Shown in pieces: positions 92-6,003 of a stretch of DNA of 64,000 bases. The stretch covers positions 673,984 through 737,983 of the forward strand of contig NZ_LHQS01000002.1 of NCBI RefSeq assembly GCF_004102725.1. The letters run 5' to 3'. Position numbers and translations under genes: made by a program. Under the pieces are notes generated by a model. It saw only the letters and a list, made by a program, of their open reading frames with translations. It did not search any database and was not told the origin of the DNA. The first letter of the stretch is position 1. Every line of letters begins with the position of its first letter. This DNA is from Methanoculleus taiwanensis (GTDB taxonomy: Archaea; Halobacteriota; Methanomicrobia; Methanomicrobiales; Methanoculleaceae).

Positions 92-2740
92 TCACTCAGC
101 GGCTTTCGGCAGCGTAAACCGGATCGCCGCCCCTTCGCCGGGAGAGCCCGCCACCCGGTCATCCGCCCGGATCTCCCCGCCGTAGCGCTCTACGAGAACC
201 CGGCTGATATAGAGGCCAAGACCCTTCCCGCTCTTTTTCCCCCCGCTCCTCCGGAACCGGTGAAATATCTCGGGTTTTAAGGGGTCGGGAATCCCGGGGC
301 CGGTATCCTCCACCGATACCTCGACAGATCCGTCTCTCTCCCGGACGCCTATCATGATCGCCACACCAGGCCCGCCGAACTTCGCGGCGTTGCCGATAAG
401 GTTGATGAAGACCTCCGGGAGGAGATCGTCGGCGAGCACGACCGCATCCGTCCCCGGGTAGCGGACGTCCGCCTCCGGGAAGAGGCGTATCACCTCGCGT
501 ATGGCTGTATCGAGCACCGTCGGGGCGAGAGCGGCCGTCTCCTCCTGCAGCCTCCGGATCGTCGAGACGTTGCCGATGATCTCGATGCTCTGCCGGATGC
601 CGGTGAGGAGTTTCTGCGCGTATACCTTCTCGTCCCCGGTGAGGATCTCTTCGAGGAGGGTCGCATACATCAGCGACGAGGTGTTGGCGTTGCTGATGTC
701 GTGCGCCATCACGTCGAGGTAGAAGTTCGCCTGCTCGTTTGCCTCCTCGAGCCTGCGCTGGAGCATCAGCCGGTCGAGGGCTCTGCCGACCTCCCTGCCG
801 ATCGAGACGAGAATGCTCTTCTCCTCGTCCGTGAAGCGGTGCGGACGCCTGCCGGTAAGGATCATCGCCCCGAGACGGCCGCCGTCCGAGGTGAGGGGGA
901 TCCGGGCGAAGGCACGGATCGCGGCGTTGCCCGGATGGTCGTCAGCGAAACAGGCTCCCTCTCCCGCAAGGATACGATCGAAGGGGGGTGCATCGAGGCC
1001 GACTTCTCCCGTCCCGGGCAGCAGATCCGCGGGAAGTCCTCGCCCGACGATCAGTCTCGCCGTCCGGCCGGATAGGTTGAAGAGGAAGACCCCTCCCCCT
1101 TCTATCCCGACGAGATCGAGTGTCCGGTGAAGCGTTTTCCGCACCAGATCCTCCGGGTCGGCAGAGGTGCTCGTGGCGCCGATCACCTGGTTGATCGCGT
1201 AAAGTTGCCGGTTCCGCCTCGTTATCCGCTCCTCGGCGGTCTTCCGCTCGCTGATATCGCTGATGTAGAGGGAGAGGCCCCGCTCCTGCGGGAAGACCCT
1301 GACCTCGAAGTATCTGTTGTGCCGGGGAGAGAAGATTTCGAACGTGGCGGGATGCCGCCCGGTAAGCACCCGGCGGAGGCTCTCCTCAAACGCGGGGCTT
1401 TCGGGTCCCGGAAAGACCTCGGAGTACTGTTTGCCGACGATCTCGCTGCGCTGCATCCCGAGCAGCCGCCCGGCGGCCTCGTTGGTGTAGGTGATCCGGC
1501 GTTCGTCGTCCATGGCGATGAATGCGTCGCTGATGCTCTCGAGGATCGCCTGTACCCGTATCTTCGACTCAAGCAGCGCTCTTTCCGCCAGTTTCCTCGC
1601 GGTGATGTCGTGGACGATCGAATGGAGGAGAGGCCGGTTTTTTACGGTGATCGCCCCGCTGTACACCTCGACGTCCCTGACCTCGCCGCTCGCAAGCACG
1701 TGGCAGAATTCGAAGTAGTTCCTGCGCTCGGCGGCTGCATCCGCCATCTCAGTGAGAATCGCCTCCTTGTTCGGTGTGCTGATATCGGCGATCGTCATCC
1801 GGGTCAGGACGTCGTGCGGATACCCGTAGAAGTGTGACGCAGCAGGGTTTGCATCGACGATCTCCCCGGTGGCGGGATCGATGAGGAGCATAACGGCGAG
1901 GCTCTCGGTGAAGATGCTTCGATACCGCTCTTCGCTCTCGCGGAGCATCTTTTCGGTCCGTATCCGTTCCACGAACCTGCCGAGCTGCCCGGCGACGGTA
2001 TCGACGAACAATCGCTCCTCCTTCAGGAAAGGCCCTTCCTCCTCCTCCGGATGATCGCTTCGGTAGAAGACTTCAAGCGCCCCGACCGGTCTGCCGTGAA
2101 CCCAGATCCCGCTTGCCAGAACCCGGGGCGTCGCCGTGACCGGTCCGGTGCAGAACGAAGCGCCGTCGATGACGATCCGGGCACCGGCGTCCTCCGGGTA
2201 CTGTAGGGCGGAGGGGATGACGGCGAGCACTTCTGAAAAGAGCTCTTCGCGCTGCAGGCCGGGTCTCTCGGTGAGGCGGGCGATGCTGTAGAGGCACGCA
2301 AGTTCCCGTTCCCGCTTGTGGAGATCGCGTCGCTCTTTTGCGCAACAGACTGCCTGGCGGATACGGTCGGGACCGAGCTGCTCTCCCGGAAGGTAGTCGT
2401 CGGCGCCCTGCAGCGACGCGATCTCGTCGCCGAGAGCGATAACGGGTATGCCGGGCGCCTGCCGCCGGATACGGGCAAGCATCTCAGGTGCCCTGCTCCC
2501 GGCAGATCCGGGATCCAGGAGGACGACCGCGAACGTTCCGGCGGCAAGTGCGTCGAGCCCCTCGAAGAGACTCCCGGCAGAGACCGTCTCGAAACGGGGG
2601 CAGCTCTCCTCGAGCAGCCTCCGGACGAGCCTTGCGTCTTTCGGGTCACTCTCGATGAGGAGAACCTTCTGTCTCGCGCTCATGTCTGGCACACGATCAA
2701 ACCCGGCTATTTTCTGCGTCTCCGCGGCGTCCCCCACCAT
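92..2740 (-). CDS. Sensor histidine kinase with N-terminal receiver, two GAF and two PAS domains
   Basis: Predicted cytoplasmic sensor kinase of 882 residues with no membrane segment. Domains in order: receiver-like (about 24-138; acidic pair at Glu30/Asp32, phosphoacceptor candidate Asp76), GAF (about 145-262), PAS (268-388), PAS (392-505), GAF (512-660), then the kinase core with H-box MAHDISNAN (His680), N-box around Asn780/Asn784, and G-boxes DTGPGIP (812-818) and GKGLGLYI. The receiver lacks the usual Lys after GADDYL (it reads GADDYLPGEQ), so phosphorelay through it is uncertain. The ATG at 2740 has GGAG directly against it; an internal ATG at residue 20 would still keep the receiver. 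The kinase core matches those at 6223-7470, 23452-25260, 35180-38329 and 39285-40229. Signal and partner are unknown. Confidence 0.9.
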   Translation of the reverse strand: MVGDAAETQKIAGFDRVPDMSARQKVLLIESDPKDARLVRRLLEESCPRFETVSAGSLFEGLDALAAGTFAVVLLDPGSAGSRAPEMLARIRRQAPGIPVIALGDEIASLQGADDYLPGEQLGPDRIRQAVCCAKERRDLHKRERELACLYSIARLTERPGLQREELFSEVLAVIPSALQYPEDAGARIVIDGASFCTGPVTATPRVLASGIWVHGRPVGALEVFYRSDHPEEEEGPFLKEERLFVDTVAGQLGRFVERIRTEKMLRESEERYRSIFTESLAVMLLIDPATGEIVDANPAASHFYGYPHDVLTRMTIADISTPNKEAILTEMADAAAERRNYFEFCHVLASGEVRDVEVYSGAITVKNRPLLHSIVHDITARKLAERALLESKIRVQAILESISDAFIAMDDERRITYTNEAAGRLLGMQRSEIVGKQYSEVFPGPESPAFEESLRRVLTGRHPATFEIFSPRHNRYFEVRVFPQERGLSLYISDISERKTAEERITRRNRQLYAINQVIGATSTSADPEDLVRKTLHRTLDLVGIEGGGVFLFNLSGRTARLIVGRGLPADLLPGTGEVGLDAPPFDRILAGEGACFADDHPGNAAIRAFARIPLTSDGGRLGAMILTGRRPHRFTDEEKSILVSIGREVGRALDRLMLQRRLEEANEQANFYLDVMAHDISNANTSSLMYATLLEEILTGDEKVYAQKLLTGIRQSIEIIGNVSTIRRLQEETAALAPTVLDTAIREVIRLFPEADVRYPGTDAVVLADDLLPEVFINLIGNAAKFGGPGVAIMIGVRERDGSVEVSVEDTGPGIPDPLKPEIFHRFRRSGGKKSGKGLGLYISRVLVERYGGEIRADDRVAGSPGEGAAIRFTLPKAAE

Positions 2741-2867: not shown

Positions 2868-3434
2868 TCAGTCTGCGAGCCCGTAACGCTGCAGGAATCG
2901 GGTTACGATCCATTCGTTCCGGACTTCGGGGTGGAACATAACGCCGTACACCGGCAGCGTCCTGTGCCTGATCGCCTGAACGCACGTATCGGAGCGTGCG
3001 AGAACCTCAAGCGACTCCGGGGGCTCGACCGAGAAGGTGTGCAGTTCGAAGGCTGAAAAACGTTCATAGCCGTCAAAGAGCGGGTCGTTGACGGATCGCA
3101 GGATCTCGGTCATACCGATCTCGCTGCACGGCACGATAGCACCGCCGAAGAGGCGTGCGATGATCTGCATCCCCGCACAGATGCCGAGCACGGGTTTTTG
3201 ATACGAACGGAGGTGCGAAAACTCCTCCGTCCGGTCGGCAAACACGTTGTCCATCAGGGCGGTTCCGCAGAGGATGACGGCGTCCGCCTCGTCGAGCAGC
3301 CCGTCGTCGACCTCGGCAAAATGCCGGACGGTATTCCGGGCATGCATGCTCTCTACAATCTGCACGACCGGCCGGACGAACTCGTCCGCGCCGAGCGAAT
3401 CCTTTCTCCAGCTGAGATCGACGATGAGTATCAT
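2868..3434 (-). CDS. Class I glutamine amidotransferase, GMP synthase-like, coupled to Dph6
   Basis: A 188-residue class I glutamine amidotransferase, which releases ammonia from glutamine. The nucleophile elbow is GICAGMQ (Cys86) and the His/Glu of the triad are in FHPE (His168, Glu170), so the catalytic residues are complete. It has no ATP-pyrophosphatase or synthase domain, so it must pass ammonia to a partner. It is not GuaA subunit A, whose N-terminus is different. Its ATG overlaps the stop codon of the upstream dph6 gene by 4 bp (ATGA), which indicates translational coupling. I infer that it could supply ammonia to the diphthine-ammonia ligase; a role in another amidation is possible. 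Confidence 0.85.
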   Translation of the reverse strand: MILIVDLSWRKDSLGADEFVRPVVQIVESMHARNTVRHFAEVDDGLLDEADAVILCGTALMDNVFADRTEEFSHLRSYQKPVLGICAGMQIIARLFGGAIVPCSEIGMTEILRSVNDPLFDGYERFSAFELHTFSVEPPESLEVLARSDTCVQAIRHRTLPVYGVMFHPEVRNEWIVTRFLQRYGLAD

Positions 3435-4111
3435 CTCTCCACCAGCCGTGCTTTTCGGATCAGGTACCTGCCGTTGTGGTTCCGGTATGCTGTGGAGGCC
3501 TCGTCGACCAGGATTCGCCGTGAAAAGAACGGTGCATCGATCACGAACGTCTCGTACTCCCCGCCTTCGCCGGTCAGGGTGATCCGGTGAGTCCGGACCA
3601 TCTTTCGGAGATCGGAGAGGGCGTCCTCGTCAAGCTCCCTCCCGAGCCACTGCTCGTCGAAGGGGGCGGAGAAAACCCCCGCGATCAGCACCCGGAACCC
3701 GGCCGCAAGCAGTGCCTCCATGTAGGCCTCCTGGTCGATATACCAGAGGGGATTATAGCACCAGAGATGCAGTTCGTTGCAGATCCGCTGGATACGTGTC
3801 GCCTGGTAGACCGAGAGGATTGCACCGGTGACGACCCCCTCGATCCCATACTCTTCCCGGGCGCGGAGAAGTGCCCGTTTCAGGTCGTCGAGTTCCACCT
3901 CTTCCTCGCCTGCCGTCTCCACTTCGACGAGCGGGAGTCCGGCGGCCTCCGCCTGGAGCGCTGCGAGGCGGATGTTCGGGGTGTGAAACATGTAACTCTC
4001 GTCGTTCCGGGAGACGATGGTGATCAGGCAGACAACGTCCTCCTTCATCATTGCCTGGTAGCAGGCAAACAGGGAATCTTTCCCTCCGGAGAATAACACA
4101 CCGAGTTTCAT
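3431..4111 (-). CDS. dph6: Diphthine--ammonia ligase (Dph6-type ATP pyrophosphatase)
   Basis: Member of the Dph6/DUF71 family of N-type ATP pyrophosphatases. In this family the enzyme performs the last step of diphthamide synthesis on elongation factor 2, ATP-dependent amidation of diphthine. The PP-loop SGGKDS is at residues 8-13 and the family hallmark GEGGEYET is at 181-188. The 226-residue length is normal for archaeal members. It is the first gene of a two-gene operon with the amidotransferase that overlaps its stop codon. The start ATG at 4109-4111 (complement) follows GAGCTGGA. Confidence 0.9.
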   Translation of the reverse strand: MKLGVLFSGGKDSLFACYQAMMKEDVVCLITIVSRNDESYMFHTPNIRLAALQAEAAGLPLVEVETAGEEEVELDDLKRALLRAREEYGIEGVVTGAILSVYQATRIQRICNELHLWCYNPLWYIDQEAYMEALLAAGFRVLIAGVFSAPFDEQWLGRELDEDALSDLRKMVRTHRITLTGEGGEYETFVIDAPFFSRRILVDEASTAYRNHNGRYLIRKARLVER

Positions 4112-4596: not shown

Positions 4597-6003
4597 ATGG
4601 GCAGACGTACTCTCTTCTCCGGCCGGATTTGGTGCAATGACGGGTTACGACGAGTACGGCAATCGTTCCCGGTCAACTGCCACCATGTTCTGGTTTCCGT
4701 TGCGGTATTCATCCTGATTGTTCTGTCGATCTTTTTTGTCTGCCAGCAGGATGAGGCCATCAGCCATACGGCAACCGCATCGTACCAACAGACGGAACTA
4801 GAGGTGGTTCGTGAAGCCGCACGGAGTATGCAGGAGTACGTATACATCCAGACAGAAGTTCTCGGAAGACAGGACATTGAGAATATCGAACAGGAAGTTC
4901 TCAAGAAGTTCATCGAACCCATCCACCTGCTGGAAAACGGCGATGCCTGGATCTATGCCCCGGATCACGTTGTCTTTGACCGGAGCTCCGACTTTCCCGA
5001 CATCTACCGCGGAAAAAGCATGGCTGAAATATTCGCCATCCAGTTGGATCACGGAGCAAGCCACTTTGAGGAGATGACCGACGACGTCACGAACGTCCGG
5101 GAGGGTTACGGCTGGTATATCTGGCTGCCGGAAAAGGGGCCCGAGATCGCTGCGTGGACTCCGGTCCGTGTCGGAAACTACTCCTGGACGATCGGCCTGT
5201 CGACACCGCTCCCGGAAATTCTGGAAGCGTCCGGTGCGTCCGGCCAGAGTGCGCGATCGGTGTTCGTCCTCGCTACAGGGATTTTTCTGGCTCTTGCCTT
5301 GTATTCGGCCTGGCTGTTCTCGGATATTAAGAGGGTGCGTGCGGAACGTGCGCTCCAGAAGGCAAACAACAAACTGCACCTCCTGAGCAGCATGACGCGG
5401 CACGATACCCTGAATAAAGTCATGGTGCTGGCAGGGTATCTCGCACTGGTGCAGGAATCAACGCACGAAGAATCGGTTCGGTCTCTTCTGAGTAAAATGG
5501 ATCGTGAACTGGACGCTGTCCGCAAGCAGATCCTCTTCACCCGGGAGTACCAGCAGCTCGGGATACTGTCTCCCGTGTGGCAGGATGCAGGAGCGGTATT
5601 TGAAAAGATTCTGCGTGAATTCGATCTCCGGGACGTGTCGAAGTCAAGCACGGTCGACGGGCTGCTGATCTATGCAGACCCGCTGTTTGAGCGGGTGCTG
5701 TATAATCTGGTCGACAATTCGCTCCGGCACGGTCAGACGGTGACCAGAATCTCGCTGGACGTTGCGATGCAACCGTCAGGTCCTGTGCTTATCTACGGAG
5801 ACGACGGGGTCGGTGTTCCGGATAAAATCAAAGGGCAGATTTTTGAGCGCGGGTTTGGGTCAAACACCGGTTTTGGACTTTTCCTCACCAGGGAGATCCT
5901 GGAGATCACCGGTATCAAGATCCGGGAAACCGGAGTTCCGGGTGAGGGCGCACGGTTTGAGATGACCCTTCCGCCGAAGGGGTGGCGACGGGGAAATGCG
6001 TGA
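4597..6003 (+). CDS. Membrane sensor histidine kinase with extracellular Cache-like domain
   Basis: 468 residues. A membrane helix at about 31-49 and a second at about 221-241 bracket an extracytoplasmic sensor of about 170 residues. Features of that segment (NGDAWIYAPDHVVFD, YGWYIW, SWTIGLSTP) resemble Cache/PAS-like ligand-binding folds. After the second helix comes the kinase core with H-box MTRHDTLNKV (His269), an N-box (YNLVDNSLRHG) and a G-box (FGLFLTREIL). This core type differs from the neighbouring THDxxN kinases but matches the one at 12613-16683. The start is supported by GGTGA six bases before the ATG at 4597. It stands alone, with no response regulator nearby. The ligand is unknown. 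Confidence 0.85.
   Translation: MGRRTLFSGRIWCNDGLRRVRQSFPVNCHHVLVSVAVFILIVLSIFFVCQQDEAISHTATASYQQTELEVVREAARSMQEYVYIQTEVLGRQDIENIEQEVLKKFIEPIHLLENGDAWIYAPDHVVFDRSSDFPDIYRGKSMAEIFAIQLDHGASHFEEMTDDVTNVREGYGWYIWLPEKGPEIAAWTPVRVGNYSWTIGLSTPLPEILEASGASGQSARSVFVLATGIFLALALYSAWLFSDIKRVRAERALQKANNKLHLLSSMTRHDTLNKVMVLAGYLALVQESTHEESVRSLLSKMDRELDAVRKQILFTREYQQLGILSPVWQDAGAVFEKILREFDLRDVSKSSTVDGLLIYADPLFERVLYNLVDNSLRHGQTVTRISLDVAMQPSGPVLIYGDDGVGVPDKIKGQIFERGFGSNTGFGLFLTREILEITGIKIRETGVPGEGARFEMTLPPKGWRRGNA

Follow-up and report, generated by a model that had tools for sequence, protein, structure and literature searches.

The gene for diphthine--ammonia ligase (Dph6) in Methanoculleus taiwanensis overlaps a gene for a class I glutamine amidotransferase (GAT), which raises the question of whether the two proteins act together as a glutamine-dependent diphthamide synthetase. 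This study analyzed the window carrying the pair, which is the whole stretch of 64,000 nucleotides, and coordinates are given as window positions. What donates the nitrogen for the final step of diphthamide synthesis has not been settled for living cells, Dph6 being an enzyme that needs ammonia. In the accessible part of a 2012 study, only domain fusions (with the class II amidotransferase AsnB or, in eukaryotes, with RidA) were offered as ammonia sources for Dph6 (PMC3541065). Our literature searches, which covered subscription journals thinly, found no published class I amidotransferase associated with Dph6. The results presented here make it probable that Dph6 and the overlapping GAT constitute a stable two-subunit glutamine-dependent diphthamide synthetase, the glutaminase center of which was later lost in several lineages. 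The features of the pair are as follows.

3431-4111, minus strand: dph6, encoding diphthine--ammonia ligase, a PP-loop ATP pyrophosphatase of the GAT-coupled subtype (226 amino acids; TIGR03679, PF01902)
2868-3434, minus strand: GAT gene, encoding a class I glutamine amidotransferase subunit (188 amino acids; PF00117), closest to GMP synthase subunit A of archaea at a score below the cut-off
3431-3434, minus strand: start/stop overlap ATGA, the 4 bp shared by dph6 and the GAT gene
4073-4090, minus strand: PP-loop SGGKDS of Dph6 (residues 8-13), invariant in a 26-row alignment and kept in both Dph6 types
3177-3179, minus strand: codon of the GAT nucleophile Cys86 (GICAGMQ); Cys in 94, Ser in 36, Gly in 2, and Ala in 1 of 133 distinct GATs
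2925-2933, minus strand: codons of GAT His168-Pro-Glu170, which hold the other triad residues; His168 in 121/133 and Glu170 in 128/133, with 5 gaps each
3267-3269, minus strand: codon of GAT Cys56, in a CGT motif found where the oxyanion loop usually reads SGG; Cys in 131/133
3752-3763: W-C-x-N motif of Dph6 (residues 117-120), which marks GAT-coupled Dph6

The initial annotation had described dph6 as overlapping a complete class I GAT gene by 4 bp, and both points were confirmed. The two open reading frames (ORFs) share the ATGA on the minus strand, which makes translational coupling likely; the GAT scored 74.3 bits against the PF00117 gathering cut-off of 22.8, and its triad is complete (C86, H168, and E170). 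The intact triad renders glutamine use plausible in the window organism, as judged from the protein sequence. The window Dph6 scored 276.5 bits against the cut-off of 197.3 for the equivalog Dph6_archaeal (TIGR03679), matched PF01902, and was matched by sequence to the structures 3rjz and 2d13. A Pfam scan assigned the GAT to class I (PF00117), with no match to the class II families GATase_6 or GATase_7. Its best-named relative was GMP synthase subunit A (PRK00758; 76.9 bits, cut-off 198), and the CGT motif aligns to the SGG of that protein. The GAT remained under every NCBIfam equivalog cut-off, including those of TrpG/PabA (45.2 vs 121.05 bits) and HisH (30.3 vs 105.4 bits).

The host genome, which is 99.98% complete, encodes elsewhere a GMP synthase subunit A (guaA-A; 243.3 bits vs 198) and a HisH over their cut-offs, a TrpG/PabA-type amidotransferase (TIGR00566 over cut-off), and one further amidotransferase. 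The window GAT is therefore not needed for those roles. A purine or tryptophan amidotransferase lying beside dph6 by accident was rejected as an explanation, because the GAT falls below all NCBIfam cut-offs and those enzymes have their own counterparts elsewhere.

The pairing of the two genes was conserved among relatives. We searched 61 genomes, the host's own and 60 others, and a close GAT was present in 49; at all 49 loci, each of which was fetched, the GAT gene lay behind dph6 on the same strand, with a 4-bp overlap in 47 and spacings of -1 and +154 bases in the others. Among the best 80 of 161 confirmed named loci, dph6 was upstream on the same strand in 79 and overlapped the GAT gene by 4 bp in 73. 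The single miss (L103) begins at a contig end, and the 79 include one locus (L122) in which the two genes are joined across a run of N. In a phylum sample of 392 genomes, hits scoring under approximately 91 bits were treated as regular GMP synthase subunit A-like amidotransferases, G329 being the only one of them fetched. In this sample, 25 genomes outside the class carried a GAT of the Dph6-linked family; every one was fetched, and dph6 was upstream on the same strand in 25/25. One of these 25 (G234, locus L201) carries a 1.4-kb insertion between dph6 and the GAT gene; the insertion holds an ORF of approximately 1.2 kb (388 codons, at about 1768-2932 of L201, reverse strand), which resembles a TnpB-type transposon protein, and the locus was hence counted as a disrupted pair. 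A partner varying between relatives was rejected, since no partner other than Dph6 was found in the three sets (49/49, 79/80, and 25/25). The conservation of the gene pair, which the initial annotation had left to be checked, thus held.

A conserved third member of the unit was likewise rejected. The commonest neighboring family occurred in 24 of the 80 named loci, and 22 of its 24 ORFs were downstream on the opposite strand; several neighbor clusters were disregarded as mixed overlapping frames of GC-rich DNA. The earlier statement that the unit contains no other synthase agrees with the finding that no further gene was conserved with the pair in these 80 loci. The ORFs flanking the pair in the window (92-2740, minus strand, and 4597-6003, plus strand) resemble sensor histidine kinases by eye. 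At two loci of genus g6 (L053 and L221), the GAT is enlarged by a low-complexity insertion in its C-terminal part, and its gene starts approximately 90-154 bases after dph6 with no overlap.

The distribution of the GAT followed one type of Dph6. Across the 232 genomes scanned within the class, listed scores for Dph6 split into a group of at least 308 bits, here termed coupled, and a group of at most 184 bits, and both types exceeded the same Dph6 cut-off. The coupled type was present in 121 of the 232 genomes, 118 of which carried the GAT, and all 118 GAT-bearing genomes carried coupled Dph6. The GAT was found in 0/94 genomes with the other Dph6 type only and in none of the 17 genomes without a Dph6 hit (an association well in excess of chance; Fisher p of approximately 8e-64 over the 232 genomes, a value not corrected for relatedness). 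Three genera (g8, g13, and g16) hold both states, with Dph6 type and GAT changing together, and both Dph6 types occur within some single genomes, such as G139. In a 91-row phylogeny of Dph6, the sequences of the other type grouped in a single clade with a support of 100. The W-C-x-N motif was conserved at 94-98% per residue in GAT-coupled Dph6 and absent from the other subtype; from this sequence pattern, the motif is a candidate contact for the GAT.

Natural fusions of the two proteins were identified in two lineages. In Methanothrix sp. GL140 (L127), Dph6 and GAT form one ORF of 437 residues with a linker, and in genus g14 they form a single ORF at three loci (L216, L219, and L220) that branch apart from L127 in the tree. 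Runs of N were absent from all four fusion ORFs; at L122, the seeming fusion stems from a gap in the assembly (X residues) and was excluded from the count. AlphaFold2 prediction of the L127 fusion with 105 unpaired rows, the alignment row sets having been picked by placement before folding, yielded a predicted local distance difference test score (pLDDT) of 93.4 and a predicted template modeling score (pTM) of 0.91, a value that depends on the alignment as described below, with a disordered linker. In our judgement, such a pTM would not be expected for two modeled domains of unrelated orientation. The Dph6 half of the model matched Pyrococcus PF0828 (3rk1; Z 33.7, root mean square deviation [rmsd] 1.3 over 218 residues), and the GAT half matched GMP synthase subunit A (2a9v; Z 25.2, rmsd 2.0 over 179 residues). 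Foldseek and VIA-align matched the domains singly, and no solved chain clearly covered both among the matches listed; for the carbamoyl phosphate synthetase matches with a span from near model residue 100, that span reflects the first and last aligned residue only. The absence of any other GAT partner from the loci searched, together with the predicted interface of the fusion, indicates that the coupling of the two proteins is well supported.

The data show that the two genes are strictly paired, that the GAT is distributed with a single Dph6 subtype, that the two proteins are naturally fused in some lineages, that an interface between them is predicted with the deeper alignment, and that the triad of the window GAT is intact. 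The mechanism that we favor is as follows. The adenylation of diphthine by Dph6 is established chemistry, and Dph6 would adenylate the diphthine carboxylate on EF2 by using ATP. The GAT would dock on Dph6 and hydrolyze glutamine through Cys86-His168-Glu170, and the ammonia would be handed from the GAT to the Dph6 site, as it is from the amidotransferase subunit to the PP-loop ATP pyrophosphatase in two-subunit GMP synthetase. Dph6 may, in addition, activate the GAT. Several lineages would later have lost the glutaminase center and kept the subunit, probably using external ammonia as CPS1 does.

Several findings weigh against this interpretation. Coupled-type Dph6 occurred without a GAT in five genomes. 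In three of them (G145 in the class set and G360 and G527 in the phylum sample), the GAT was absent despite sequence to spare, and coupled Dph6 is therefore apparently able to do without it; in the other two (G063 and G199), a contig end truncates Dph6. On the Dph6 tree, the GAT-less coupled rows (L212, L249, and L250) were scattered among GAT-bearing relatives, which is the pattern expected of losses. When the L127 fusion was refolded with 33 rows (12 Dph6 rows unused in the first fold and 20 GAT rows that were a subset of those in the first), the domains folded and the pTM was only 0.63. The value of 0.91 is consequently not independent of the alignment, and the interface prediction needs adequate depth. 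For the complex that the initial annotation had suggested predicting, an interface was predicted on a natural fusion with the deeper alignment and not with the shallower one.

The loss of the catalytic cysteine was unexpected. Cys86 was missing in 39 of the 133 distinct GATs. A tree of 124 Dph6-GAT pairs, built with the motif columns excluded, requires at least five switches between presence and absence of the cysteine, all of them forced by well-supported branches. The lineages without it comprise a Methanoculleus-type clade, in the genus of which (g5) Cys86 was missing in 29/29 sampled genomes; the L193-L197 clade, adjacent to Methanothrix, in which His168 was lost as well; the single rows L117 and L143; and the fused L220. 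The median dN/dS (ratio of nonsynonymous to synonymous substitution rates) of the GAT was 0.33 in the Methanoculleus-type clade (27 sequences) and 0.27 in the L193-L197 clade (5 sequences), compared with 0.40 in the cysteine-bearing rows (80 sequences); the corresponding Dph6 medians were 0.20, 0.11, and 0.25. These values show that the GATs without the cysteine are under purifying selection rather than decaying, so the subunit must do something besides act as a glutaminase. The loss of the nucleophile under continued pairing and selection also means that glutaminase activity is not what maintains the gene everywhere.

A first alternative gives the GAT a chiefly structural or regulatory function, in which it stabilizes Dph6, docks EF2, or shapes an ammonia inlet, with free ammonia as the donor everywhere and the remaining triads as relics. 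The nucleophile changed repeatedly although the gene stayed present and paired, and the clades without the cysteine are under selection; both points favor this alternative, as does the finding that Cys56 (131/133) and Gly57, Thr58, and Asp62 (133/133 each) are conserved more strongly than the nucleophile. The retention of a dead GAT domain in human CPS1, described in the available portion of PMC4655335, is a further point in its favor. However, 94 of the 133 distinct GATs hold Cys86, most rows with the whole triad and over deep divergence, and class II amidotransferase domains have been joined to Dph6 independently. We regard this alternative as unlikely, although it is the strongest of those considered.

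A second alternative, that the GAT hydrolyzes some other amide or gamma-glutamyl compound and merely shares an operon with dph6, finds some room in the scores, because no curated NCBIfam cut-off was passed and homology therefore does not assign the substrate. The exclusive pairing, the co-distribution with one Dph6 subtype, the fusions in two lineages, and the predicted interface argue against it, and we consider it highly improbable. An equally improbable proposal is that EF2 is not the substrate of the pair and that coupled Dph6 is not the diphthamide enzyme: the accessible text of PMC3541065 links some family members to B12 salvage, but the window Dph6 exceeds the Dph6_archaeal equivalog cut-off, shares its catalytic motifs (residues 8-13, SGGKDS, and 181-185, the C-terminal GEGGE) with the other Dph6 type, and is the sole Dph6 match in a nearly complete genome that also has dph2 and dph5, both over cut-off.

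The interpretation as a two-subunit synthetase with later losses hence remains the preferred one, with a modification of what had been proposed for the pair. The coupling of Dph6 to a glutaminase-type subunit stands, whereas uniform glutamine use does not. Similarly, the suggestion that the pair avoids reliance on free ammonia cannot hold in every lineage that keeps the subunit, given the GATs that lack the nucleophile, and is plausible for the window organism. The lineages without the cysteine probably run on external ammonia entering the retained complex in a CPS1-like manner, as judged from that analogy; Methanoculleus is prevalent in ammonia-rich digesters according to the consulted part of PMC5062929, which would fit ammonia use. 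A broader proposal, to which we give slightly less than an even chance, is that a new two-subunit, class I glutamine-dependent diphthamide synthetase extends across Methanomicrobiales, relatives of Methanothrix, and further archaea, and that its glutaminase was repeatedly switched off with the subunit still bound and the complex ammonia-dependent, the Methanoculleus-type genus g5 being the clearest case. The pair offers a directly testable class I answer to the donor question, and the natural fusions allow both parts to be produced as a single polypeptide. Because the nucleophile was lost more than once while the pairing persisted, the family is a natural experiment in how amidotransferases come to depend on ammonia, and Cys56-Gly-Thr and Asp62 stand out in it as residues with a possible role other than glutaminase.

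Comparison with known systems places the pair between several solutions to the supply of ammonia. Stand-alone Dph6 (Pyrococcus PF0828 and the other Methanomicrobiales subtype) belongs to the same family and has the same catalytic motifs; the GAT adjoined the other Methanomicrobiales subtype in 0/30 loci, and that subtype lacks residues of coupled Dph6 such as W117, C118, N120, and Q108. Fusions of AsnB to Dph6, reported for Methanohalophilus, Methanosalsum, and others and proposed as an ammonia source in the accessible part of PMC3541065, resemble the pair in attaching a glutamine-hydrolyzing-type module to Dph6. They differ in that an unrelated class II amidotransferase with an extra AsnB PP-loop domain is N-terminal to Dph6, whereas the window-type GAT is class I, lies downstream of Dph6, and is mostly a separate subunit. 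In our data, Asn_synthase domains were fused to Dph6 in 4/4 long frames scanned (L251, L252, L253, and L256; proteins of 636-727 amino acids in which Dph6 is the C-terminal part), with a GATase_7 match in three; families f8 and f10 contain many further Dph6 frames of approximately 690-770 amino acids. The class I subunit is thus a different solution to the same ammonia need as the AsnB and RidA fusions.

The Dph6-linked family resembles CPS1 in that a class I GAT module was kept after its catalytic cysteine was lost (to serine). It differs from CPS1, the synthetase partner of which has the ATP-grasp fold, in having a PP-loop partner and in that the loss occurred in several lineages and affected only part of the family. 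In human CPS1, the cysteine is replaced by Ser294 and external ammonia is used, as stated in the available portion of PMC4655335; NAD synthetases show a comparable mix of ammonia- and glutamine-using forms (PMC3376133, consulted in part). The closest parallel is GMP synthetase, in which an amidotransferase and an ATP pyrophosphatase are joined by a channel and are separate proteins in many archaea (PMC10526850, accessible sections). Similar to the two-subunit archaeal enzyme (GuaA-A and GuaA-B), the pair sets a class I amidotransferase subunit beside a PP-loop ATP pyrophosphatase, and the best family and fold matches of the window GAT are to GMP synthase subunit A. Unlike GuaA-A, the window GAT is far below the cut-off, carries CGT in place of SGG, and coexists with a separate guaA-A in the genome; unlike GMP synthetase, its partner is Dph6 and the proposed acceptor is diphthine on EF2.
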